DNA from: Nioella sp. MMSF_3534
Lineage (GTDB): Bacteria > Pseudomonadota > Alphaproteobacteria > Rhodobacterales > Rhodobacteraceae
Length of the DNA: 43,778 bases
NCBI RefSeq assembly: GCF_030732985.1
Contig: NZ_JASHJX010000040.1
Location: forward strand, 1 to 43,778
Reading direction: 5' to 3'
Positions 1 through 12,029 of the stretch are shown here, one piece after another. The stretch's first letter is position 1. Every line of letters starts with the position of its first letter. Below the pieces are notes generated by a model that did not search any database, was not told the origin of the DNA, and saw only the letters and a list, made by a program, of their open reading frames with translations. The position numbers were made by a program, and so were the translations under genes.

Positions 1-89
1 CCGTCGCGCCGGGGCATGGTTGCTCCGGGGCGGCAAACCGAACCACACGAGAACGGCCCGCAGATGACGGGCAACCGAGGACGAGACAC

Positions 90-1418
90 ATGACCATCGA
101 CTATCTCAAGCGAGGCAAACCGGCGGATGAACGGGCCGAAGATGACGCCAAGACCCGCGCCGTGGTGGAGGCGACGCTCGCGGATATCGAAGAACGCGGG
201 GACGCGGCGGTGCGGGAGCTGTCCGAGAAGTTCGATGGCTATTCGCCTGCGAGCTACCGGCTGTCCGAGGCCGAGATCGCGGCGCTGATCGACGAACTGA
301 CTGACCGCGAACTGGCCGATATCAGGTTCGCCCAGGAACAGGTGGTCAAGTTTGCGCAGGCACAGCGCGACTCGATGCTGGATATCGAGGTGGAAACCCT
401 GCCCGGCGTCATTTTGGGTCACAAGAACATCCCCATGCAATCCGTGGGCTGTTACGTGCCCGGCGGCAAGTTCCCCATGGTGGCCTCGGCCCATATGTCG
501 GTGGCCACGGCATCGGTCGCGGGCGTGCCGCGCATCGTGGCCTGTACGCCGCCATGGCAGGGCAAGCCCAACCCCGCCGTCATTGCCGCCATGCATCTGG
601 GCGGCGCGCATGAGATCTACGTTCTGGGCGGTATCCAGGCCGTGGGGGCCATGGCGCTCGGCACCGAGACGATCGAACCCGTGCACATGCTGGTCGGACC
701 CGGAAATGCCTTCGTGGCCGAAGCCAAGCGCCAGCTTTACGGACGCGTCGGCATCGACCTATTCGCAGGCCCGACCGAAACCATGGTGATCGCCGACGAC
801 ACCGTGGATGGCGAGCTTTGCGCCACCGATCTGCTGGGGCAGGCTGAGCATGGCTACAACTCTCCCGCCGTGCTGGTCACGAACTCACGGAAACTGGCCG
901 AGGAGACCCTGTCCGAAATCGACCGGATCCTGACCATCCTGCCCACGGCAGATACCGCGCGCACCAGTTGGGAAGACTATGGCGAGGTGATCCTCTGCGA
1001 CAGCTATGACGAGATGCTGGCCGTGGCCGATGACATCGCATCGGAGCATGTGCAGGTGATGACCGACCGCGATGACTGGTTCCTGGAGAACATGACCTGC
1101 TACGGCGCGCTCTTCCTCGGGGCGCGGACGAATGTGGCCAATGGCGACAAGGTGATCGGCACAAACCACACGCTGCCCACCAAGAAGGCCGGGCGCTATA
1201 CCGGCGGGCTCTGGGTCGGCAAGTTCCTGAAAACCCACAGCTACCAGAAGGTGCTGACCGATGAGGCCGCGACCATGATCGGCGAATATGGCAGCCGCCT
1301 GTGCATGCTGGAGGGCTTCGTGGGCCATGCCGAGCAATGCAACATCCGCGTGCGTCGCTATGGCGGGGTCAATGTGCCCTATGGCGAAGGCGCGCCCCAC
1401 CGGGAAGCGGCGGAATGA
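90..1418 (+). CDS. Histidinol-dehydrogenase-family NAD-dependent alcohol dehydrogenase (HisD/HpsN-like paralogue)
   Basis: A 442-residue HisD-fold protein of normal family length. The zinc and catalytic positions are visible: Gln251 and His254 in GQAEHG, the Glu319-His320 pair in ASEH, Asp353 and His360 in the GD...GTNH stretch, and His413 near the C-terminus. HisD enzymes oxidise a primary alcohol to a carboxylate in two NAD-dependent steps. The gene sits far from the other his genes of the window (21161-24428) and heads a catabolic cluster with an SDR and a LacI regulator, so a true histidine-biosynthetic role is unlikely. HpsN, the sulfopropanediol 3-dehydrogenase, is the best-known catabolic relative, but hpsO, hpsP and a TRAP transporter are not seen here. 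The start ATG has GAGGACGAG just upstream. Family call is firm; substrate is unknown. Confidence 0.85.
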
Positions 1419-1431
1419 GCGGAGCGCGGGC

Positions 1432-1523
1432 AAGGCGCTTCGAAGCGCCTTCAAAAAGCGGTTTCGAAACCGCTTCCCACGCGATTTGCAAATCGCGTCT
1501 TTCATGGCCCTTCGAAGGGCCAT
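1432..1523. repeat. Four consecutive 20-bp perfect palindromes
   Basis: Between the HisD-like gene and the next gene lie four perfect palindromes of exactly 20 bp: 1432-1451 (arm AAGGCGCTTC), 1456-1475 (arm AAGCGGTTTC), 1479-1498 (arm ACGCGATTTG) and 1504-1523 (arm ATGGCCCTTC). Spacers are 4, 3 and 5 nt, giving centre-to-centre distances of 24, 23 and 25 bp. Three share a TTCGAA core and one has TTGCAA. The arms differ, so this is not a copied unit but a string of different palindromes of one design. In RNA each could fold as a hairpin with a 4-nt loop. It may belong to a dispersed intergenic repeat family, may end or protect the upstream mRNA, or may bind a protein. Confidence 0.93.
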
Positions 1524-1550
1524 CCTCCGCCTGTGTCAACCGGGCGCGCC

Positions 1551-2594
1551 ATGACTGACCGCAGCGCCAGTATCAAGGCCGCGATTGCCCCGCTTCGGGC
1601 GGCCATGGCGGATTTCGCGGAGGCTCCGGTGCGGAAGGCTCTGGCGGGGATCGCGCCGGACGTGGCCGTTCGGTTGTGCCACCCGTTCGGCGACCTGTCA
1701 GGCGCTCAGGCACTCTATGACACCGCCTATGCGCCGCTGCTGGCCGCCATGCCCGACCTCGAACGCCGCGACATGATCGTCATGGCGGGCACCACGCCCG
1801 AGGGGCAGGACTGGGTCGGCTGCATGGGCAATTACATGGGCACGTTCCGCGCGCCCTTCCTCGATATTCCCCCCACGGGCCATCTGGCCCATATGCGCTA
1901 TCACGAGTTCTTTCGGCTGGAAAACGGTCAGATCACCGAGATGCAGGCGATCTGGGACATTCCCGAATTGATGATGCAGGCAAACGCCTGGCCCATGGCG
2001 CCGCAGCTTGGGGCCTTCCTCTGCACACCTGCACCCATGTCGGGCGACGGGCTGGCCATAGAGGGCGACGGGCAGGCGGCCATGGATCACGTCATCGCCA
2101 TGCTGACGGATCTCTGCAAGTTCCCGGGCAACCCGGATCCGGGCGTCATGCAGCTTCACCGGTACTGGCACCCCAAAATGAACTGGTACGGCCCCGCCGG
2201 CATCGGCACCGCACGCGGCATCGCGGGCTTCCGCACCTGGCATCAGGGCCCGTTCCTGCGCGGCATGCCCGACCGCAAGCTCGACGCCATGGGCGATCTC
2301 ATGTCCCACTGGGTGGGCGAGGGCGACTATGTCTGCGAAACCGGGTGGCCCAATATGCGGCTGACGCTGTCGGGCGATGGCTGGATGGGGATTGCGCCCT
2401 CCGACAGGGAAATCCTGCTGCGCAGTCTTGATTTCTGGCGGCTGGAGGGCGGGCTCATCCGTGAAAACTGGGTCCTTGTGGACATTCTCGACGCCTACCG
2501 GCAGCTTGGGGTGGATGTGCTTGGGCGCATGCGGGAATTCAACAAGGCCCGCGTTCCCGGCACCATCCCCGAACCGGATTGGAGAGACGCATGA
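1551..2594 (+). CDS. Double NTF2/SnoaL-like domain protein
   Basis: A 347-residue protein that reads as two NTF2-like (SnoaL/ester cyclase) domains, roughly residues 30-145 and 175-335. Each half shows the usual pattern of helices followed by strands ending in a hydrophobic, Trp-rich segment. Members of this fold are small cone-shaped enzymes (cyclases, isomerases, dehydratases) or binding proteins, and catalytic residues vary too much to name here. ATG at 1551 is preferred over an in-frame GTG at 1533. The stop overlaps the next start as ATGA at 2591-2594, so it is translationally coupled to the SDR gene. A second two-domain protein of the same type lies at 4371. Specific function unknown. 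Confidence 0.75.
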   Translation: MTDRSASIKAAIAPLRAAMADFAEAPVRKALAGIAPDVAVRLCHPFGDLSGAQALYDTAYAPLLAAMPDLERRDMIVMAGTTPEGQDWVGCMGNYMGTFRAPFLDIPPTGHLAHMRYHEFFRLENGQITEMQAIWDIPELMMQANAWPMAPQLGAFLCTPAPMSGDGLAIEGDGQAAMDHVIAMLTDLCKFPGNPDPGVMQLHRYWHPKMNWYGPAGIGTARGIAGFRTWHQGPFLRGMPDRKLDAMGDLMSHWVGEGDYVCETGWPNMRLTLSGDGWMGIAPSDREILLRSLDFWRLEGGLIRENWVLVDILDAYRQLGVDVLGRMREFNKARVPGTIPEPDWRDA

Positions 2595-3355
2595 CCCTGC
2601 CCCGCACCCCCTCGTTCCGCCTCGACGGCAAACGCGCTCTGGTCACGGGCGCCTCTTCCGGCATCGGGCTGGCGGCCGCCGTGGCACTGGCCGAGGCCGG
2701 GGCGCATGTGGTTCTGGCAGCGCGCTCCGCCGACAAGCTCGGCGCGGCGGTGGCGGCCATGCAGGCCGAAGGCATGAGCGCCGAGGCGCTGGTCCTCGAT
2801 GTCTCCGACGTGGCCGCAACCGAGGATGCCGTCGCGCGGGCGGAACCCTTCGATGTGCTGGTCAACTCCGCAGGGGTTGCGCGCCATTCCCCGGCGCTTG
2901 ACACGACCGAGGGCGATTTCGACCTGGCCATGGGGCTCAATCTGCGCGGGGCCTATTTCCTGACGCGCGCCGTGGCGGAGCGGCTGATCGGCAGCGGGCG
3001 GCCCGGATCGCTGATCAACATTTCCAGCCAGATGGCGCATGTGGGGGGCATCGACCGCGCGGTCTATTGCGCGAGCAAACATGCGGTCGAGGGCTTTACC
3101 AAGGCGATGGCGATCGAATGGGGCCCGCGCCAGATCCGCGTCAATACGATCTGTCCCACCTTCATCCTGACGCCGCTGACGCAATCCACCTTCGACAATC
3201 CGGAACGCGCGGCCTGGATCAGGGAGAAGATCAAACTGGGCCGTCCGGGCGAGGTCGAGGATATCATGGGCGCGGTGGTGTTCCTGGCCTCCGACGCCTC
3301 GGCGCTTGTCACGGGCACGGCGCTGATGGTGGACGGGGGGTGGACGGCAGACTGA
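2591..3355 (+). CDS. SDR-family NAD(P)-dependent oxidoreductase
   Basis: A 254-residue classical short-chain dehydrogenase/reductase. The nucleotide motif TGASSGIG is at residues 19-26, the NSAG structural motif near 92-95, the catalytic Ser at 145/146, and the YCASK motif gives Tyr159 and Lys163. Classical SDRs interconvert a secondary alcohol and a ketone with NAD(P). The ATG overlaps the upstream stop (ATGA), which fixes this start over an in-frame TTG 12 nt earlier, and the stop overlaps the next start by one base. In this cluster it probably oxidises a hydroxyl of the pathway substrate or an intermediate. The substrate cannot be inferred. Confidence 0.9.
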   Translation: MTLPRTPSFRLDGKRALVTGASSGIGLAAAVALAEAGAHVVLAARSADKLGAAVAAMQAEGMSAEALVLDVSDVAATEDAVARAEPFDVLVNSAGVARHSPALDTTEGDFDLAMGLNLRGAYFLTRAVAERLIGSGRPGSLINISSQMAHVGGIDRAVYCASKHAVEGFTKAMAIEWGPRQIRVNTICPTFILTPLTQSTFDNPERAAWIREKIKLGRPGEVEDIMGAVVFLASDASALVTGTALMVDGGWTAD

Positions 3356-4374
3356 TGGCAGAGAAAGTCACATCCCTTCAGGTCGCAGAACGCGCGGGCG
3401 TCAGCCAAAGCGCCGTCAGCCGCGTCTTCACCCCCGGCGCGTCGGTCTCGGCGAAAACGGCGGAAAAGGTGCGCAAGGCGGCGCGCGAACTGGGCTACCG
3501 CCCCAACATCCTTGCCCGCGCCATGATCACCGGGCGTAGCCGCATCATCGGGCTGGTGGTGGCCTATCTGGAAAACCACTTCTACCCGGAAGTGCTGGAG
3601 AAGCTGTCGAACGCGTTGCAGGCGCAGGGCTATCACGTGCTGATCTTCATGGCCTCCAACACCGCCGACAATATCGACAGCGTGATGGATGAGATCCTCG
3701 ATTACCAGGTTGACGGCATCATCCTCGCCTCGGTCGCCATGTCCTCGGACCTGACGCAGCGCTGTGAGGCGGCAGGCGTTCCGGTGGTGCTGTTCAACCG
3801 TTTGCAGGATGACGAAACGCTGTCCGGTGTCGCCTCCGACAACGTGGCGGGCGGGCGCAAGCTGGCCGAGTTCCTCGTTGCGGGCGGTCACCGCAAGATC
3901 GCCCATATCGCGGGATGGGAGGGGGCCTCCACGCAGCGCGACCGCGAAAAGGGGTTCCTTGAGGGGCTGACGGCCGCGGGCCTCTCGCTTCATTCGCGGG
4001 CCGTCGGCAATTTCCACACCGATCAGGCGCAGGCTGCCGCGCGGCAGCTATTCGACACAGAGGATCGCCCCGACGCCGTCTTTGTCGCCAACGATCACAT
4101 GGCCTTCGCGGTGATGGATGTGCTGCGCTACGAGCTTGGCCTTGGCATCCCCGCCGATGTCTCCGTCGTCGGCTATGACGATGTCATCATCTCCGCCTGG
4201 CCCAGCTATAACCTGACCACCGTGCGCCAGCCCGCCAACCGGATGGTGGAGGAAACCGTGCGCACCATGCTGGCCCGTATCGACACGCCCAACATGCCCG
4301 CCCGCCGGGTGGCCATCGACGGCCCGCTCATCATTCGCGGCTCGGCCCGCATTCCCCAAGGATGGACCTCATGA
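3355..4374 (+). CDS. LacI-family transcriptional regulator of the catabolic cluster
   Basis: A 339-residue LacI/GalR regulator. The N-terminal helix-turn-helix covers about residues 6-28 (VAERAGVSQSAVSRVF), followed by a hinge helix (residues 45-60, including PNILARAMITGRS) and a periplasmic-binding-protein-like effector domain ending in the usual SVVGYDD segment. The ATG overlaps the SDR stop by one base (TGATG), so the regulator is inside the operon rather than at its edge. LacI proteins generally sense a small sugar-like or polyol-like ligand and repress their own cluster, which hints at a hydroxylated substrate. No convincing operator was found in the part of the upstream region that is inside the window. 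Confidence 0.92.
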   Translation: MAEKVTSLQVAERAGVSQSAVSRVFTPGASVSAKTAEKVRKAARELGYRPNILARAMITGRSRIIGLVVAYLENHFYPEVLEKLSNALQAQGYHVLIFMASNTADNIDSVMDEILDYQVDGIILASVAMSSDLTQRCEAAGVPVVLFNRLQDDETLSGVASDNVAGGRKLAEFLVAGGHRKIAHIAGWEGASTQRDREKGFLEGLTAAGLSLHSRAVGNFHTDQAQAAARQLFDTEDRPDAVFVANDHMAFAVMDVLRYELGLGIPADVSVVGYDDVIISAWPSYNLTTVRQPANRMVEETVRTMLARIDTPNMPARRVAIDGPLIIRGSARIPQGWTS

Positions 4375-5348
4375 AAGGGTTTGACCCCAAATTCGCCGAT
4401 TTCCCCGATTACATCCTCGGCATCACGCGCGAGATCTGGGAAGATCGCGGCATCGCCACGCTGCACGACTACTACGCGCCCGATATCGTGGTGCGCAGCC
4501 CCGGTTCCGTCGTCATCGGCAACCAGGGCGTCATCGGCGCGACCATGGCGACACTGGCGGAGTTTCCCGACCGGCAGTTGCTGGGAGAGGATGTGATCTG
4601 GTCCGGCACGCCGGAGGAGGGGATGCTGTCTTCGCACCGCATTCTGTCCACCGCCACCCATGCCTGCGACGGGGTCTACGGCAAGGCCACGGGCACAAAG
4701 CTCACCTACCGGATCATCGCGGATTGCCACGCGATCGCGAACCAGATCAACGATGAATGGCTGATCCGCGATCAGGGCGCAATCGTGCGCCAGATGGGCT
4801 GGACGCCCAGGAAATACGCCCGCGCGCTGATCAAATCCGAGGGCGGGCCGGAAAAGGCCGTGCGCCCGCTGACCCCCGCCAATGACGTGTCCGGCCCCTA
4901 CAAGGGTCGGGGCAATGACAATGAATGGGGCCAGCGCTATGCCGACATCCTGACCCGGATCATGGGCGCCGACATGGCCGCGATCCCGCGCGAATACGAC
5001 CGCGCAGTGCAGACCGAGTATCCCGGCGGCGTGACCGGACATTCCTGGGGCTCGGTTGATGGCTTCTGGATGGGCCTGCGCGCGGCCCTGCCCGATGCAA
5101 CCTTCACCATCGACCACCAGATCGGGCGGGACGACCCCCTGATGCCGCCCCGCGCCGCGATCCGCTGGTCACTGCATGGGCGTCACGAAGGCTGGGGCTG
5201 TTTCGGCAAACCCACGGGGGCCGAGATCTACCTTCTTGGCATCACCCACGCGGAGTTTGGCCCGCGCGGCATCCGCCGCGAATACACGCTCTTCGATGAA
5301 ACCGCGATCTGGAAACAGATCCTCCTGCATAGCGGGGCCGCCGAATGA
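4371..5348 (+). CDS. Second double NTF2/SnoaL-like domain protein (ester-cyclase-like)
   Basis: A 325-residue protein made of two NTF2-like domains, about residues 14-150 and 180-320. The N-terminal part carries the ester-cyclase-like pattern of an early helix, a YYAPDIVVRSP strand and an IGNQGVI segment; the C-terminal part has GRHEGWGCFGKPTG followed by EYTLFDE. ATG at 4371 overlaps the LacI stop as ATGA and has AAGGA 8 nt upstream; an alternative ATG at 4362 has no well-placed ribosome site. It is the second two-domain NTF2 protein of the cluster and is clearly diverged from the one at 1551. Role unknown, possibly isomerisation, dehydration or ring opening of a pathway intermediate. Confidence 0.78.
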   Translation: MKGFDPKFADFPDYILGITREIWEDRGIATLHDYYAPDIVVRSPGSVVIGNQGVIGATMATLAEFPDRQLLGEDVIWSGTPEEGMLSSHRILSTATHACDGVYGKATGTKLTYRIIADCHAIANQINDEWLIRDQGAIVRQMGWTPRKYARALIKSEGGPEKAVRPLTPANDVSGPYKGRGNDNEWGQRYADILTRIMGADMAAIPREYDRAVQTEYPGGVTGHSWGSVDGFWMGLRAALPDATFTIDHQIGRDDPLMPPRAAIRWSLHGRHEGWGCFGKPTGAEIYLLGITHAEFGPRGIRREYTLFDETAIWKQILLHSGAAE

Positions 5349-5446
5349 CAGGGCTGCGCCCCACCCTGGCGCTTACGCGCCGCCACGGCTTCCTCGCCAG
5401 CCGACGCGCACGGCGGCTGAACCTGCGACCACCGGGAACGGGCTGA
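5345..5446 (+). other. Possible 33-codon small ORF coupled to the upstream gene
   Basis: An ATG at 5345 overlaps the stop of the NTF2 protein as ATGA and opens a 33-codon, Arg-rich frame ending with TGA at 5444-5446, inside a GGGCTG/CAGCCC hairpin (5440-5455). ATGA coupling is how several genes of this cluster are joined, but the peptide resembles nothing known and could be chance in high-GC DNA. The 140-bp gap also holds a GGCGC/GCGCC hairpin at 5368-5381. Confidence 0.2.
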
Positions 5447-5488
5447 CACCAGCCCAACCCAACCCGCAGTTTCACAAAGGATAGCACA

Positions 5489-6457
5489 ATGACCCCGCAA
5501 GAGATGGAAGCCCGCATCGTCCGTTATGGCGACCTCCAACCCTGCAAGACCGCCTTCATCGACGCCCATACGCCCGGCAGCGACCAGAAGGAAAACTTCA
5601 CCATCATCGGCGGCGGCGTCAGCGAAAGCCCCGATCAGCACGTCCACATCTCGATCCCGCATGGTTTCAACATCGGCGCGGCGGGCCAGCCCCCCAAATG
5701 CCGCAACTCGCTGCACGATCACCGCACGGCAGAGGCGTTCTTCGTCCTCTCCGGCCGCTGGCGCTTCTTCTGGGGGCGCTATGGAACGGCGGGTGAAGTG
5801 ACGCTGGAAGAGGGTGACATCTTCAACATTCCCACCGGCGTGTTCCGGGGGTTCGAGAATATCGGTACCGATTACGGAATGATCATGGCCATCCTCGGCG
5901 GCGACGATGCCGGCGGCGGCGTGATGTGGGCGCCGCAGGTGATCGAGGATGCCGCCGATCACGGGCTGGTGCTGGCAGAAACCGGCAAGCTCTATGACAC
6001 CAAGCAGGGCGAGGCGCTGCCAAAGGGCGTGGCCCCCATGCCGCTCATGTCCGCCGAAGAGCTTGCCAAGCGGGGGGAACCCAGCACGGCAGAGGTCCTG
6101 CCCAACCACGTCGCCCGCTACTGGGACATGGTGGCGCTGGCCGACAAAACGCCCTGCAAGGTGATCGGTGAATCCGGCCTGTTGCGCGACAAACCCGGCT
6201 TCGAGGTCGATTTCATCACCCGCGCCTCCGCCACGGATGCCAAGCACAGCCATGACAAGCCCTCCGTCCTGATGCCGGTCAAAGGCCACTGGCGGGTGGA
6301 CTGGGACGGCGGCAGCGCCACGCTTGCCCCCGGCGACACGATGAGCGTTCCCGAAGGCTTGGCCCATAGCGCGGTGCCGTCGATGACCGGTGAAGCCGCA
6401 ATGTACCACATCGTCGCCACGGGCGACCCCGCCGGGCTGACCTGGCAGGGCAAATGA
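5489..6457 (+). CDS. Bicupin protein with two incomplete metal sites
   Basis: A 322-residue protein with two cupin domains, about residues 60-140 and 230-315, a layout like gentisate-type dioxygenases. The first has HxH-x3-E-x6-G (His76, His78, Glu82) but Arg120 where motif 2 normally has its His. The second has His253, His255 and His293 but Ser259 where motif 1 normally has Glu. The sites therefore read as 2-His-1-Glu and 3-His, each with a different ligand lost. Cupins of this kind bind Fe, Mn or Ni and may be dioxygenases, isomerases or lyases. Its ribosome site is AAAGGATAG. A strong terminator follows, so this is probably the last gene of the first transcript. Substrate unknown. Confidence 0.8.
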   Translation: MTPQEMEARIVRYGDLQPCKTAFIDAHTPGSDQKENFTIIGGGVSESPDQHVHISIPHGFNIGAAGQPPKCRNSLHDHRTAEAFFVLSGRWRFFWGRYGTAGEVTLEEGDIFNIPTGVFRGFENIGTDYGMIMAILGGDDAGGGVMWAPQVIEDAADHGLVLAETGKLYDTKQGEALPKGVAPMPLMSAEELAKRGEPSTAEVLPNHVARYWDMVALADKTPCKVIGESGLLRDKPGFEVDFITRASATDAKHSHDKPSVLMPVKGHWRVDWDGGSATLAPGDTMSVPEGLAHSAVPSMTGEAAMYHIVATGDPAGLTWQGK

Positions 6458-6466
6458 CGATCCGAG

Positions 6467-6495
6467 GGGTGGCCCCACGGCGGGGCCGCCCTTTT
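6467..6495 (+). terminator. Rho-independent terminator after the bicupin gene
   Basis: A 9-bp stem (6468-6476 with 6482-6490, one G-T pair) with a 5-nt loop, followed by CTTTT. It separates the upstream cluster from the transferase-hydrolase-lyase unit. Confidence 0.75.
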
Positions 6496-6529
6496 CCCCG
6501 TCCTTCCCGCGAGACGCCGTTTTGTCTGC

Positions 6530-6580
6530 ACGGGGGGTGTACGGGGGGTGTACAGGGGGTGTACGCATGGCACCCCCCTG
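6530..6580 (+). promoter_or_regulatory. Three 11-bp G-rich tandem repeats and a complementary C-rich arm
   Basis: Units ACGGGGGGTGT at 6530-6540 and 6541-6551 and ACAGGGGGTGT at 6552-6562 repeat with an 11-bp period, about one helical turn. CACCCCCCTG at 6571-6580 is complementary to the repeat core and can pair with any unit; the closest pairing gives a hairpin with about 9 pairs and a 9-nt loop. It ends 25 nt before the ATG at 6606, so it could be a multi-site operator or a leader RNA with alternative folds. Confidence 0.6.
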
Positions 6581-6605
6581 TTTTCGACAGGGAGGAGAGA
6601 CATAA

Positions 6606-7733
6606 ATGACCCGAATTCTGACGACCCATGTGGGCAGTCTTCCCCGCACGCAGGAGGTGGTGGATTTCATCTTCGCCCGCGAACGGGAAGAGCCTTTTGA
6701 CGCCGCCGCCTTTGATGCCTGCATGACGGCGGCTGTCTCAGAAACCGTGAAAAAACAAAGGGATGCAGGGATTGATATCGTCTCGGACGGCGAGACGTCG
6801 AAGATCTCCTACGCGACTTACGTAAAAGACCGCTACACTGGCTTCTCCGGCGACAGCCCCCGCAACGCGCCCGCCGATCTCAAGATGTTTCCCAGCTTTC
6901 TCAAGCGGTTAGCGGATGACGGTGGCACCCCGCAATACGCCCGCCCCATGTGCACCGGAGAGGTGCGGTCGAAAGGGCAGGGCGAGCTGGAAAAGGACAT
7001 CGCCAATCTGAAGGCCGCGATGGCCGAACACGGGGTGTCTCGCGGTTTCATGAACGCCGCCAGCCCCGGTGTTATCTCCCTGTTTTTACAGAATGATTTC
7101 TACAAGACACGAGAGGCCTACCTGGCCGCGCTGGCTGATGCGATGAAGGCGGAGTACGAAACCATCGTGGCCGCCGGACTCGATCTGCAACTCGATTGCC
7201 CCGATTTGGCGCTCTCCCGTCACATGTTGTTTACCGATTTGTCGGATACTGAGTTCCTGAAGGTCGCCAACATGCATGTGGAGGCGCTCAATCACGCCCT
7301 TCAGGATGTGCCGCAGGGTCGCGTAAGGGTCCATATTTGCTGGGGAAATTACGAAGGGCCCCATTGCTGCGACATCCCAATGGCCAAGATGTTCGACACG
7401 CTCATGTCGACCAAATCGCGCTATGTGCTGTTCGAGACGTCGAACCCCCGCCACGGCCATGAATGGACCGTGTTCCGCGACCGCAAGGCAGATATCCCGG
7501 ACGACAAGGTGCTGGTCCCCGGCGTGGTCGATACAACGACCAATTTCGTGGAGCATCCGGAGCTTGTTTCTCAGCGAATCCAACGGTTTACCGACATTGT
7601 CGGCGCGGATCGCGTAATCGCGGGCAGCGATTGCGGCTTCGGCACCTTCGCCGGTTTCGGCGCCGTCGATCCCGAGATTGCCTATGCCAAGCTGAAAGCC
7701 CTCTCCGACGGTGCGGCGCTGGCAAGCCAATGA
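6606..7733 (+). CDS. Core-MetE/UROD-like zinc methyl- or alkyltransferase
   Basis: A 375-residue protein matching only the catalytic half of cobalamin-independent methionine synthase. Zinc ligands are in place: His243 and Cys245 in VHICWG, Glu277 in LFETSN and Cys343 in GSDCGF; the N-terminal THVGSLPR motif is also typical. The family includes short MetE-like methyltransferases and epoxyalkane:coenzyme M transferase, all of which activate a thiol on zinc. Full MetE is about 750 residues, so this is not a standard methionine synthase. The ribosome site is GGGAGGAGAG and the stop overlaps the next start as ATGA. In a catabolic cluster a demethylating or dealkylating step is the simplest reading; this is inference. 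Confidence 0.8.
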   Translation: MTRILTTHVGSLPRTQEVVDFIFAREREEPFDAAAFDACMTAAVSETVKKQRDAGIDIVSDGETSKISYATYVKDRYTGFSGDSPRNAPADLKMFPSFLKRLADDGGTPQYARPMCTGEVRSKGQGELEKDIANLKAAMAEHGVSRGFMNAASPGVISLFLQNDFYKTREAYLAALADAMKAEYETIVAAGLDLQLDCPDLALSRHMLFTDLSDTEFLKVANMHVEALNHALQDVPQGRVRVHICWGNYEGPHCCDIPMAKMFDTLMSTKSRYVLFETSNPRHGHEWTVFRDRKADIPDDKVLVPGVVDTTTNFVEHPELVSQRIQRFTDIVGADRVIAGSDCGFGTFAGFGAVDPEIAYAKLKALSDGAALASQ

Positions 7734-8425
7734 CGCTACCGCTGTTGCTTCTGCCGGGCATGATGTGCGATGCCCGGCTGTTTTTCCCCCAGATATCAGT
7801 GCTTTCCGCGCAGCGCGCTGTGATGGTTGCACCCATGGGCGGGGCCGACAACATGGCCGAACTCGCACGCGACGTGCTGGCAAACGCGCCGCCCCGCTTC
7901 GCGCTTGCTGGCCTGTCCATGGGAGGTATCCTCGCCATGGAGATCGTGCGCCAAGCACCGGACCGGGTGGAGCGGCTGGCGCTTCTCGACACCAACCCGC
8001 GAGCTGAACTGCCCGAGGTGAAGGCCCGTCGCATCCCGCAGATGGAGGCCGTGAAAGCGGGCCGCCTGCGCGAGGTCATGCGCGACGAGATGAAGCCGAA
8101 TTACCTCGTCGACAGCCCACGCAAACCGGCGATCCTGGATCTCTGCATGGATATGGCGCTGGACCTCGGCCCGAAGGTTTTTCTCAATCAATCCATTGCC
8201 TTGCGCGACCGGCCTGACCAACAGGAGACGCTCGCCGCCTACAAGGGCAAAGCGCTGGTCCTGTGCGGGCGGCATGACGCGCTCTGCCCCGTGGAACGGC
8301 ATGAGCTCATGCACGGGCTGCTGGAAAACAGCCACCTGGAGATCATCGAAAACGCGGGCCATCTGCCCACGCTGGAACAACCCGAACACACCACGGCGGC
8401 CCTGATCCGCTGGCTGGAGGATTGA
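7730..8425 (+). CDS. Alpha/beta hydrolase
   Basis: A 231-residue alpha/beta hydrolase. The nucleophile elbow GLSMGG puts Ser63 in place; Asp183 in GRHD and His211 in NAGHLP complete the triad. LLLPGMMCD near residues 6-14 supplies the oxyanion-hole region. It is short for the family, so the lid is small. It would cleave an ester, thioester, lactone or C-C bond of a pathway intermediate. It is coupled to the transferase upstream (ATGA at 7730) and to the RraA-like gene downstream (1-nt overlap), which makes these three one unit. Confidence 0.88.
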   Translation: MTLPLLLLPGMMCDARLFFPQISVLSAQRAVMVAPMGGADNMAELARDVLANAPPRFALAGLSMGGILAMEIVRQAPDRVERLALLDTNPRAELPEVKARRIPQMEAVKAGRLREVMRDEMKPNYLVDSPRKPAILDLCMDMALDLGPKVFLNQSIALRDRPDQQETLAAYKGKALVLCGRHDALCPVERHELMHGLLENSHLEIIENAGHLPTLEQPEHTTAALIRWLED

Positions 8426-9117
8426 TGGACGACACCCTTCTGACCCTGCTCAACAGCGTCGATACCCCCACCGTCTGCAACGCCATCGAAGTGGCGCAAG
8501 GCAAGCGCGGCTTCAACGCCTTCACCCGCGGCACGATGCTGGCCAGCGACCCCACGGGCGTGATGGTGGGCTACGCCGTAACAGCGCAGATCGCCGCCGT
8601 CGCGCCTCCCACGGAAGACGCCGCTACGATCCGCGCCCGCCGCATGGCCTATTACAAGGCGATGGCGGAGGGGCCGAAACCCTCGGTCGCGGTTGTGGAG
8701 GATCTCGACTACCCCAATGCCATCGGCGCCTACTGGGGCGAGGTGAACACGACGATCCACAAGGGCTTCGGCATGTCCGGTGCGTTGACCAACGGGGTCA
8801 TGCGCGACCTTGGCGACCTCGCCCCTGATTTCCCGGTGGTTGCGGGCAGCATCGGGCCGAGCCATGGCTTCGTCCATGTGCGCAGCATCAATCAGCCGGT
8901 GCGGATCATGGGCATGGATGTGCGCCCCGGCGACCTGATCCATGCCGACCGGCACGGGGCGGTTGTGATCCCGCCAGAGGTTGTCGACCAACTGGCCGCT
9001 GCAATCGAAAAAATGCAGGAAACCGAACGGCTTGTGCTGGAGCCGGCCCGCGCCGAAGGGTTCGATTTCAACGCCTTCGAGAAAGCCTGGACGGCCTTCG
9101 AAAAGGCGCGCACCTGA
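8425..9117 (+). CDS. RraA-family aldolase/lyase (HMG-aldolase-like)
   Basis: A 230-residue RraA-like protein. The metal-binding and substrate Arg-Asp pair is at Arg127-Asp128 in ALTNGVMRDL, and the C-terminal family signature HADRHGAVVIP is at 173-183. Class II relatives are 4-hydroxy-4-methyl-2-oxoglutarate/oxaloacetate aldolases and decarboxylases using a divalent metal; plain RraA (about 160 residues) inhibits RNase E. Length and catabolic context favour an enzyme that cleaves a 2-oxo acid near the end of the pathway. The ATG shares a base with the hydrolase stop (TGATG); an in-frame TTG at 8422 is less likely. The exact reaction is not known. Confidence 0.82.
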   Translation: MDDTLLTLLNSVDTPTVCNAIEVAQGKRGFNAFTRGTMLASDPTGVMVGYAVTAQIAAVAPPTEDAATIRARRMAYYKAMAEGPKPSVAVVEDLDYPNAIGAYWGEVNTTIHKGFGMSGALTNGVMRDLGDLAPDFPVVAGSIGPSHGFVHVRSINQPVRIMGMDVRPGDLIHADRHGAVVIPPEVVDQLAAAIEKMQETERLVLEPARAEGFDFNAFEKAWTAFEKART

Positions 9118-10898: not shown

Positions 10899-10964
10899 AT
10901 GACTTGAGTCAAGGTCCGCCCCGCTGCAATCGGCCAAACCGCAGCCAAGTTGCAGGAGATCATC

Positions 10965-12029
10965 ATGGATATCGTTCCCCTCGTTGACCGGATCGGAGAA
11001 CCCCAAACCGCCGCATTGTTCGGGTTGATCACCGGATTGCTGCTCGGCATCGCGGCGCAGCGGTCATCCTTTTGCCTGCGCGCCTCGGTGGTGGAGTTCG
11101 CGAAAGGCCAGCTCGGCAGCCGCATGGCGGTCTGGCTGCTGGCCTTCTCGACGGCGGTTGTCTGGACGCAACTTGCGGCATTGTCGGGGATGATGCGGGT
11201 CGAGGATGCGCGGATGATGGCGGTGCCGGGCTCGATCTCGGGTGCGATCGTCGGCGGGTTGCTGTTCGGCGCGGGCATGGTCATGGCGCGCGGCTGTTCA
11301 GGCCGGTTGCTGGTGCTGGCGGCAACGGGAAACATGCGCTCGCTCGTGTCGGGGCTGGTCTTTGCCGTGGTGGCGCAGATGGCATTGCAGGGCTGGCTGT
11401 CACCGCTGCGCAACTGGGTGGCGGGGCTGTGGATCACGCCCGGCGGCACCAATTTCAACCTGCTTACCTCGCTGCATCTGCCGCCCGTGTCCGGCTTCAT
11501 GATCGGGCTCGGCTTTGCATTGGCGGCGCTTTGGCTGGCGCGCAAGAACCGGGTCAGCTTGCGGGTTCTGTTTACCGCGTCTGGCGTGGGGTTCGCGGTC
11601 GCGGCGGGATGGGTGCTGACCTATTCGCTCAGCCAGGTGGCCTTCGATCCCGTGCAGGTGGAAAGCGCGACCTTCACGGGGCCGTCCGCCAACACGCTGA
11701 TGTTCTTCCTGACCTCCAGCCCGGTGCTGGAGTTCGATATCGGCCTCGTGCCCGGCGTCTTCCTGGGGGCCTTCCTGTCGGCGCTCTGGGGACGGGAGCT
11801 GAAGCTGCAGGGCTTTGACGGCGCTGGCAATATGAGCCGTGCCCTCATCGGGGCGGCGTTCATGGGAATGGGCGGCATGCTGGCAGGAGGCTGCGCAATC
11901 GGGGCAGGCGTGACCGGCGGCTCGATCTTCGTGGGCACGGCGTGGCTGGCGCTGTTGTGCATGTGGATCGGCGGCATGGTGACAAGCTGGCTGCTGGACC
12001 AACGGGGTGCCGTGGCGCAGCCCGCTTAG
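10965..12029 (+). CDS. YeeE/YedE (TsuA-type) sulfur-compound transporter
   Basis: A 354-residue integral membrane protein of the YeeE/YedE family. The family cysteines sit in conserved loops: Cys37 in QRSSFCLR, Cys111 in MARGCSGR and Cys310 in LAGGCAIGAG. Characterised members (TsuA) import thiosulfate by handing it between these cysteines; PmpA/PmpB relatives are linked to sulfide and persulfide handling. The length fits the single-chain form with two homologous halves, each carrying an A/G-x-G-C motif. AGGAG lies 7 nt before ATG 10965, which is preferred to an upstream in-frame TTG at 10950. Transport of a reduced sulfur compound is likely; the exact ion is not known. Confidence 0.85.
   Translation: MDIVPLVDRIGEPQTAALFGLITGLLLGIAAQRSSFCLRASVVEFAKGQLGSRMAVWLLAFSTAVVWTQLAALSGMMRVEDARMMAVPGSISGAIVGGLLFGAGMVMARGCSGRLLVLAATGNMRSLVSGLVFAVVAQMALQGWLSPLRNWVAGLWITPGGTNFNLLTSLHLPPVSGFMIGLGFALAALWLARKNRVSLRVLFTASGVGFAVAAGWVLTYSLSQVAFDPVQVESATFTGPSANTLMFFLTSSPVLEFDIGLVPGVFLGAFLSALWGRELKLQGFDGAGNMSRALIGAAFMGMGGMLAGGCAIGAGVTGGSIFVGTAWLALLCMWIGGMVTSWLLDQRGAVAQPA

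Follow-up and report, generated by a model that had tools for sequence, protein, structure and literature searches.

The island examined here lies at positions 90-9117 of a window that is the entire contig C40 (43,778 bases) of the draft genome of Nioella sp. MMSF_3534, which consists of 105 contigs. About fifteen genes make up the full island, which is shared by many marine roseobacters; the nine in the window form its 3' portion, and since the window begins at a contig end, the 5' part is missing from it. Judged by sequence, the genes would import, sense and break down a possibly methylated, sugar-like compound, as a putative catabolic operon whose methyl-transfer component is unusual. In the explanation we favour, with a probability of about one half, LacI controls the uptake and breakdown of a polyhydroxylated and often methylated compound, and a pyruvate-forming aldolase acts last. 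Sequence comparisons showed conservation of the gene order, co-occurrence of the genes, a common operator and, in annotated alphaproteobacterial relatives, an ATP-binding cassette (ABC) importer of the CUT1 sugar type.

Nine open reading frames on the plus strand occupy the region, and a profile search assigned them to Pfam families that agree in name, order and strand with the initial annotation. With the starts chosen, five of the eight junctions are overlaps of 1-4 nucleotides (nt), as had been noted for most junctions, and the remaining three are gaps of 132, 140 and 148 nt. The tight spacing described for the whole set applies to genes 2-5 and 7-9. The features are:

90..1418, plus strand: HisD/HpsN-type dehydrogenase (PF00815, E 1.9e-132)
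1419..1550, no strand: gap with four tandem palindromes (1435, 1457, 1480, 1506), a dispersed intergenic repeat
1551..2594, plus strand: double SnoaL/NTF2-fold protein a (PF07366, 8.3e-22; PF12680); possible upstream GTG start at 1533
2591..3355, plus strand: short-chain dehydrogenase/reductase (SDR), nearest to KduD/GolD models
3352..4374, plus strand: LacI-family regulator (PF00356, PF13377)
4371..5348, plus strand: double SnoaL/NTF2-fold protein b (PF07366, 4.8e-13); alternative ATG at 4362
5489..6457, plus strand: bicupin (PF07883)
6464..6494, plus strand: hairpin followed by TTTT at the cupin/MetE junction, probable intrinsic terminator or attenuator (fold energy)
6555..6577, plus strand: second terminator-like hairpin (terminator consensus scan)
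6606..7733, plus strand: MetE-core zinc thiol methyltransferase-like protein of 375 amino acids (PF01717, 2e-13)
7730..8425, plus strand: alpha/beta hydrolase, nearest to enol-lactonase PcaD models
8425..9117, plus strand: RraA-like class II pyruvate aldolase candidate (PF03737, 9.3e-20)

Conservation and co-occurrence of the island genes

Of 568 relatives found by MetE similarity, the best 80 supplied the loci, all from named genomes, in which gene order was compared. These genomes include Ruegeria, Aliiroseovarius, Shimia, Leisingera, Phaeobacter, Sulfitobacter, Yoonia, Planktomarina, Amylibacter and others. Some loci end at contig ends, and a few (e.g. L079, L124, L126) are short contigs with two or three island genes. 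In 80/80 loci the genes detected at a minimum of 45% identity are collinear on a single strand, and all nine genes were found in 51. Counts for individual genes range from 65 (RraA) up to 80 (cupin and MetE, the latter by construction). Conservation of the gene order, a check proposed in the initial annotation, extends far beyond the genus. Within the blocks 2-5 and 7-9 nearly all measured gene pairs are coupled, with medians of -1 to -4 nt; at the junction of MetE and hydrolase the median is -4 nt, and 59/59 pairs lie within 10 nt. Loose junctions are those between SnoaL-b and cupin (median 151 nt) and between cupin and MetE (median 78 nt).

Co-occurrence was surveyed in genomes of the family with two probes. 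A MetE-like protein was present in 153 of 394 genomes (E 1e-100), leaving 241 without a match, and the bicupin in 162 of 388 (E 1e-60). Both were found together in 141 genomes, MetE alone in 12 and the cupin alone in 21, an association far above independence (Fisher odds ratio 120, with the total taken as 388 and phylogeny ignored). The two survey draws differ in size (394 versus 388), and some of the genomes with a single probe may have been searched with one probe. For 14 of the 141 shared genomes the place of a gene is unlisted in one of the two outputs. Among the 127 with both places, the genes are within 6 kb in 102, farther apart on the same contig in 2, and on separate contigs in 23. 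Twenty-one of these 25 unlinked genomes were examined (G223, G229, G324 and G399 were left out): MetE adjoins at least one other island gene in 18, in four of which this is the hydrolase alone in the stretch fetched, and three genomes have lone MetE genes. Separate contigs were therefore rejected as proof of inheritance in trans, MetE still being beside an island gene in 18/21. That the genes are chance neighbours was rejected on the basis of the collinearity in 80/80 loci and of the two-probe survey.

Because MetE, the type of aldolase and the uptake system vary between relatives, the stable core of the island is HisD and SDR alcohol oxidation, the cupin, the hydrolase and a pyruvate-type aldolase. 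The number of SnoaL proteins varies as well, and MetE is a common addition to this core. An Amidohydro_2 protein is present in Ruegeria conchae and in G428, which belongs to another class of the phylum. In Marinovum the island has a gene of the selenium-binding-protein-56 family (methanethiol oxidase type) next to it, and in Phaeobacter piscinae such a gene adjoins an ABC/ester-cyclase cluster (L139, L186). Methanethiol oxidase was rejected as a general member, such a gene being found beside 2 of 107 loci.

Two intergenic regions of the window were analysed for structure. A terminator had been claimed at 6467-6495, and a strong hairpin followed by TTTT was indeed found at about 6464-6494 (-27 kcal/mol, z -2.6; 4 of 200 shuffles equally good). 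It is probably an intrinsic terminator or attenuator. The terminator consensus scan missed it and reported 6555-6577 instead; the region around this second hairpin, 6520-6590, has a fold z of -2.3. The gap at 1419-1550 (fold z -4.2) contains four different palindromes, each centred on TTCGAA or TTTGCAAA, of which many partial copies occur elsewhere in the genome. This array is, by its sequence, a dispersed repeat resembling repetitive extragenic palindromic elements. It splits the HisD-SnoaL junction, which is usually tight (median gap of 1.5 nt in 60 relatives versus 132 nt in the window). Downstream of the island, a TsuA/YeeE-like transporter is encoded at 10950-12029, scoring well under the curated cut-offs for thiosulfate transporters.

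Importer and candidate operator

The initial annotation had placed a transporter upstream of the window, and importer genes were found 5' of HisD in relatives as well as on another contig of the same genome. In the annotated relatives Ruegeria conchae, Octadecabacter, Marinovum and Paracoccus alcaliphilus, the region 5' of HisD contains genes for an ABC ATPase, a solute-binding protein, two permeases, an extra double SnoaL and often a single SnoaL protein. Across 98 loci (L039-L136), with counts limited by the length of the upstream flank, the permease clusters were detected 66 and 60 times, the binding protein 44, the ATPase 29 and the single SnoaL 68 times. Of the two types suggested earlier, TRAP or ABC, the sugar ABC type is the one present in the annotated relatives. 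TRAP genes adjoin the ABC importer in Roseibium and occur in L175.

In Nioella ostreopsis the binding protein and permeases match Pfam SBP_bac_1 and BPD_transp_1, and a glucose-methanol-choline (GMC) oxidoreductase gene precedes HisD. The binding protein has its counterpart in the genome studied here on contig C68 (89%), of which positions 10-5541 align over 5.5 kb with the N. ostreopsis locus through the last permease (86%); from HisD on, that locus matches C40:90 onward. Since both contigs align to consecutive parts of the N. ostreopsis locus, we infer from this synteny that C68 abuts C40. C68:1-5541 (L237) carries the importer and a divergent double SnoaL gene belonging 5' of the window, and the assembly break falls between permease and HisD, at the position of the N. 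ostreopsis GMC oxidoreductase. In protein searches the best match to this oxidoreductase in the Nioella sp. MMSF_3534 genome was 39%, and the single SnoaL had its best matches, at 32% and 26%, among other genes of the double SnoaL type.

The regions 5' of the importer ATPase are rich in CG-centred palindromes (33 in 19 of 36 regions versus 3.1 in shuffles), whose consensus, TTTGCAWRCGYWTGCAAA, is a candidate operator of the LacI type. A scan of 132 loci (2.74 Mb) found 45 exact cores, TGCAWNCGNWTGCA, in 30 of them, one being counted twice, and 1 in a single shuffle; the shuffles preserve base composition only. L042 and L096 are one place, and further pairs of loci from the two collections may coincide. 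The operator evidence rests on the ATPase upstream regions and the exact-core scan, and the sets for the binding protein (L098) and the GMC oxidoreductase (L118) contain mis-extracted stretches. In the genome analysed here (4.15 Mb) three sites are present, two of them before the importer and 55 nt apart. The third, TTGCAACCGGTTGCAA at C49:16195-16208 (L238), is just 5' of a Gfo/Idh/MocA-like frame (family named by eye) and perhaps marks another LacI regulon. An exact operator also precedes MetE in 3 of the 21 genomes with MetE and cupin apart; two of the three lone MetE genes, which have no further island gene within the fetched stretch, carry one. In L050, L246 and L249 it is located about 60-90 nt 5' of HisD. 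In three intergenic regions of the island, a 16-nt CG-centred palindrome was not enriched (0, 2 and 5 hits versus about 2.5 each). The LacI protein encoded by gene 4 is presumed to read the TTTGCAWRCGYWTGCAAA operator. The importer and some HisD and stray MetE genes have this LacI-type candidate operator in common.

Protein families and a putative pathway

The best solved relative of the HisD protein is sulfopropanediol 3-dehydrogenase 8v35 (E 4.9e-116), followed by (R)-2,3-dihydroxypropane-1-sulfonate (DHPS) dehydrogenase 8wwe; histidinol dehydrogenases are weaker matches than these HpsN-type structures. The zinc and EH motifs of HisD-type enzymes have assigned catalytic roles. GDK..G.NH and QAEHG are present in 81/81 orthologs, and the EH motif appears as SEH in 64 of the 81 and as YEH in at least 11 others. 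Use of zinc and NAD is predicted from the family. SnoaL a and b belong to the PF07366 fold (77.8 and 49.5 bits versus a gathering score of 28.4), and conserved residues were identified in both ortholog alignments. The SDR protein scores under the cut-offs of the 25 NCBIfam models listed. In cupins the fourth metal ligand is usually His. The N-terminal cupin of the bicupin keeps H76, H78 and E82, which are likely metal ligands, and has Arg120 at the fourth-ligand position; HxHxTAE is found in 81/81 and PT(G/N)(I/V)FRG in 78/81 orthologs, and the C-terminal domain is less conserved. Its best profile match among solved structures, acireductone dioxygenase, is weak (E 0.0009 over 42 positions). 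The hydrolase has GxSxG in 73/73 orthologs and reaches 88 bits with PcaDC (cut-off 390).

In aldolases of 4-carboxy-4-hydroxy-2-oxoadipate (CHA) and 4-hydroxy-4-methyl-2-oxoglutarate (HMG), an acidic residue precedes the catalytic RD pair. The RraA-like protein has the motif GE-x20-RD in 72/72 orthologs and aligns with the CHA aldolase 3noj across RD, with GD in 3noj instead of GE. In some relatives an HpcH/HpaI-type aldolase replaces RraA.

The MetE-like protein, 98% identical to its N. ostreopsis counterpart, matches PF01717 alone; the folate-binding N-terminal half is absent. H243, C245, C343, S11, E63 and D197 are invariant in alignments of 28 sequences, which take in haloarchaea, and of 24 sequences. 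E277 is kept in 28/28 and 23/24, the exception being Asp in L073, a type of change also reported for the characterised MesB (PMC7857596). These residues line up with the MetE motifs of structures 1xpg and 1t7l: H243, C245, E277 and C343 correspond to the zinc ligands H641, C643, E665 and C726 of Escherichia coli MetE, and S11, E63 and D197 to its homocysteine residues S433, E484 and D599. Zinc and homocysteine roles of the core methionine synthase residues are described in the accessible text of PMC7857596.

Outside the family the MetE-like gene has other neighbours. On plasmids of Sphingobium and Croceicoccus (L142, L148) a 51-54% identical gene overlaps an NTF2 gene and has LigM-like, metF, purU, folD and dihydroneopterin aldolase genes within about 12 kb. 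LigM acts in tetrahydrofolate-dependent aromatic O-demethylation (PMC8091115, accessible part), and the MetE-like protein of these clusters is a possible methyl sink of such a reaction. In Halobellus limi (plasmid, L141), five ester-cyclase genes lie directly 5' of a 41% identical MetE-like gene, and the archaeal cluster also contains ABC permeases and an aldehyde dehydrogenase. Outside Rhodobacterales, a SnoaL/NTF2 gene is near MetE in 5 of 10 loci that were annotated or fetched (L147 among them), and in 3 of eight further loci (L178, L220-L226; BLAST with a limited query set). With these counts a general link of MetE and SnoaL outside the family was rejected.

An existing mutant bears on the role of this protein. 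In a study of the lag phase of Phaeobacter inhibens, PGA1_c27430 ("Mes-like") was knocked out and the primers were printed (PMC12366255, accessible part). In the island of Phaeobacter italicus (L127), the gene-specific parts of three of them fall on the cupin, the MetE/hydrolase junction and RraA, in correct order and strand, with 4/21, 2/22 and 2/20 mismatches, respectively; they read as AFIDAH, TPLLLL and IGAYWG, motifs of the proteins of these regions. The verification primers 15 and 16 show at least 6 mismatches to the P. italicus locus and have no clear place there, and primer 16 can be placed in L077 with 3/21 mismatches. Since the three knockout primers map in order to island genes, PGA1_c27430 is very probably the MetE-like gene of the P. 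inhibens island. As far as the accessible text goes, the mes-like mutant was grown in the same medium as the other mutants, without the methionine supplied to the bmt mutant, and dimethylsulfoniopropionate still shortened its lag (PMC12366255).

For the pathway as a whole, the reactions, the substrate and the acceptor thiol are all deduced from these families. A polyhydroxylated, sugar-like molecule would be imported, and its presence would free the operator before the importer from LacI. A primary alcohol could become a carboxylate through the HisD-type enzyme, and a secondary alcohol a ketone through the SDR protein. Acid-base steps on the oxo intermediate, such as dehydration, isomerisation or retro-aldol cleavage, might then fall to the double SnoaL proteins. 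In an optional step the MetE-like enzyme would use a zinc-activated thiol to remove a methyl group from the substrate; because the homocysteine residues are conserved, homocysteine is the most likely acceptor. Cupin and hydrolase may open or hydrolyse the product, from which the RraA-type aldolase, or the HpcH type in some relatives, would release pyruvate.

A complete pathway in the nine genes, as first proposed, was not borne out, the importer, the single SnoaL and further SnoaL genes lying outside. A number of observations weigh against the favoured explanation. Two hairpins and the 148-nt gap set the MetE block apart from the upstream genes. No operator lies within the window, 102 of the 132 loci are without an exact site, in many cases for lack of coverage upstream of the importer, and a looser palindrome test found no enrichment upstream of HisD (11 hits in 101 regions versus 11.9 shuffled) or of the single SnoaL (5 hits in 72 regions versus 9.7). 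Distance correlations between island proteins are 0.27-0.72, with the species tree not corrected for. Uptake differs among relatives (ABC, TRAP, or a symporter of the SSF type with a TonB receptor), and the importer therefore does not fix the class of the substrate. Much of the module is accompanied by a TonB receptor and a sodium:solute symporter in L178, L179 and L220, which suggests that the enzyme set has been transferred between uptake systems. For a methylated substrate, proposed from the outset, the MetE-like gene is the sole basis, and 21 of 162 cupin genomes, including G004 of the same genus, are without a MetE match (the miss is directly listed for G004, G012 and G023). The island stretches of G328 and G719 also lack MetE, with no genome-wide match at E 1e-60, and none is listed in the annotated plasmid stretches of Roseibium, Alloyangia, Sinorhizobium and Paracoccus, for which gene tables are incomplete and chromosomes unsearched.

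Alternative explanations and known systems

The genomes and stretches lacking MetE lead to the strongest alternative, which we regard as having a limited but real chance: the substrate of the core, here with the importer, would be a polyol or sugar acid that carries no methyl group, and a co-induced methionine synthase, the MetE-like protein, would obtain its methyl group elsewhere. Islands without the gene are otherwise similar, and the sphingomonad relative beside metF, purU, folD and a LigM-type gene could use methyl-folate. The bmt mutant of P. inhibens showed low growth without methionine, for which its authors suggest a second synthase with Mes-like as candidate (PMC12366255, accessible part). 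Speaking for the favoured catabolism of an often methylated compound, 141 of the 153 MetE genomes have the cupin too, MetE is tightly coupled to the hydrolase, and the protein is without the folate-binding half.

A specific version of the methylated pathway would be breakdown of gadusol or 4-deoxygadusol, the core of mycosporine-like amino acids, through CHA; we consider it unlikely. Mycosporine cores are methoxylated cyclohexenone sunscreens of algae. HisD might turn the ring CH2OH into a carboxylate, the MetE-like enzyme could move the enol methyl to homocysteine, leaving a reductone, and the cupin, with its weak acireductone dioxygenase-like match, would cut the ring between C2 and C3. On paper the product is exactly CHA, which LigK-type aldolases would split into pyruvate and oxaloacetate. 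The enzyme types in this unproven route come from searches, the chemistry and compound structures from background and deduction. MetE-less islands in soil rhizobia argue against gadusol as the general substrate. No paper on catabolism of gadusol-type compounds was among the matches listed, and the accessible text of a review (PMC10384724) has no mention of mycosporine biodegradation or demethylation.

It is quite improbable that the MetE-like protein is a general, housekeeping methionine synthase. The zinc and homocysteine residues are kept, and the residual growth of the bmt mutant would fit. However, the mes-like mutant was grown without added methionine, and P. inhibens is reported to become a methionine auxotroph when mtgCDE is mutated, despite its core-MetE homolog (PMC12478193, accessible part). 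In addition, 241 of 394 family genomes have no match, and the Nioella sp. MMSF_3534 genome has pieces that match MetH with scores too low for the curated model, the pattern expected of a split enzyme. On balance, since the mes-like mutant conditions lacked methionine, and weighing this against the residual growth of bmt, a dedicated role is favoured.

That the island degrades DHPS or a different C3 sulfonate, HisD serving as an HpsN, is very improbable. HpsN-type enzymes are its nearest solved relatives, but annotated loci have the CUT1 importer, and no sulfonate gene was recognised among annotated neighbours, although no search was aimed at sulfonate or hps genes. The HpsN pathway has hps partner genes and TRAP uptake, and to our knowledge the established sulfonate route makes no use of SnoaL, MetE, cupin or RraA proteins.

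Least probable of all is opening of an epoxide with a thiol by the MetE-like protein, as in epoxyalkane:coenzyme M transferase, with SnoaL resembling limonene-epoxide hydrolase: both superfamilies include such members, but the homocysteine residues are kept, and no monooxygenase or coenzyme M gene was recognised among annotated neighbours, at which no search was aimed. Membership of the UroD superfamily is listed in PMC10418091 (accessible part).

In agreement with the initial annotation, which knew of no described pathway with this set, no paper on the gene set was found in the searches made of open-access papers; the component families are known, and for their combination, for the operator and for the position of the P. 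inhibens Mes-like gene in the island no description turned up in these searches. The marker genes are present in about two in five sampled genomes of the family (153/394 for MetE, 162/388 for the cupin), and the substrate is therefore probably a common compound of mostly marine habitats. It could be traced through the importer, through the repressor and its clear candidate operator, through a methyl donor for homocysteine that is possibly not a folate, and through the existing P. inhibens mutant. If the MetE-like enzyme passes methyl groups of an algal compound directly to homocysteine, the core-MetE homologs of marine bacteria, called questionable in function (PMC12478193, accessible part), would gain a role.

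Four known systems come closest to the island. HpsN is the nearest solved relative of the window HisD, with the HisD-type zinc and EH motifs kept, but the operon partners and importer of its pathway differ from those at the island loci seen. LigK-type HMG/CHA aldolases have the GE-x20-RD motif and fold family in common with the RraA-like protein, which is far below the cut-off of the curated ligK model (41.9 versus 304.5 bits). With the core methionine synthases MesA-D (Price et al. 2021, PMC7857596, accessible part), the MetE-like protein shares a single MetE catalytic domain of under 400 amino acids, the zinc ligands H, C, E and C and the substrate residues S, E and D. Unlike these, its gene sits in a catabolic operon with a hydrolase and an aldolase, and the P. 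inhibens mutant in the island ortholog was grown without added methionine. For the MesD partner MesX (PF08908) the genome gave no match, but the positive control was silent too. The sphingomonad ligM/metF clusters contain a MetE-like relative together with an NTF2 protein, and that of Croceicoccus adds ligK and ligJ-like genes; the island, in contrast, has a sugar importer, HisD and LacI, and its annotation includes no gene of folate metabolism, of the LigM-like type or for ring cleavage.

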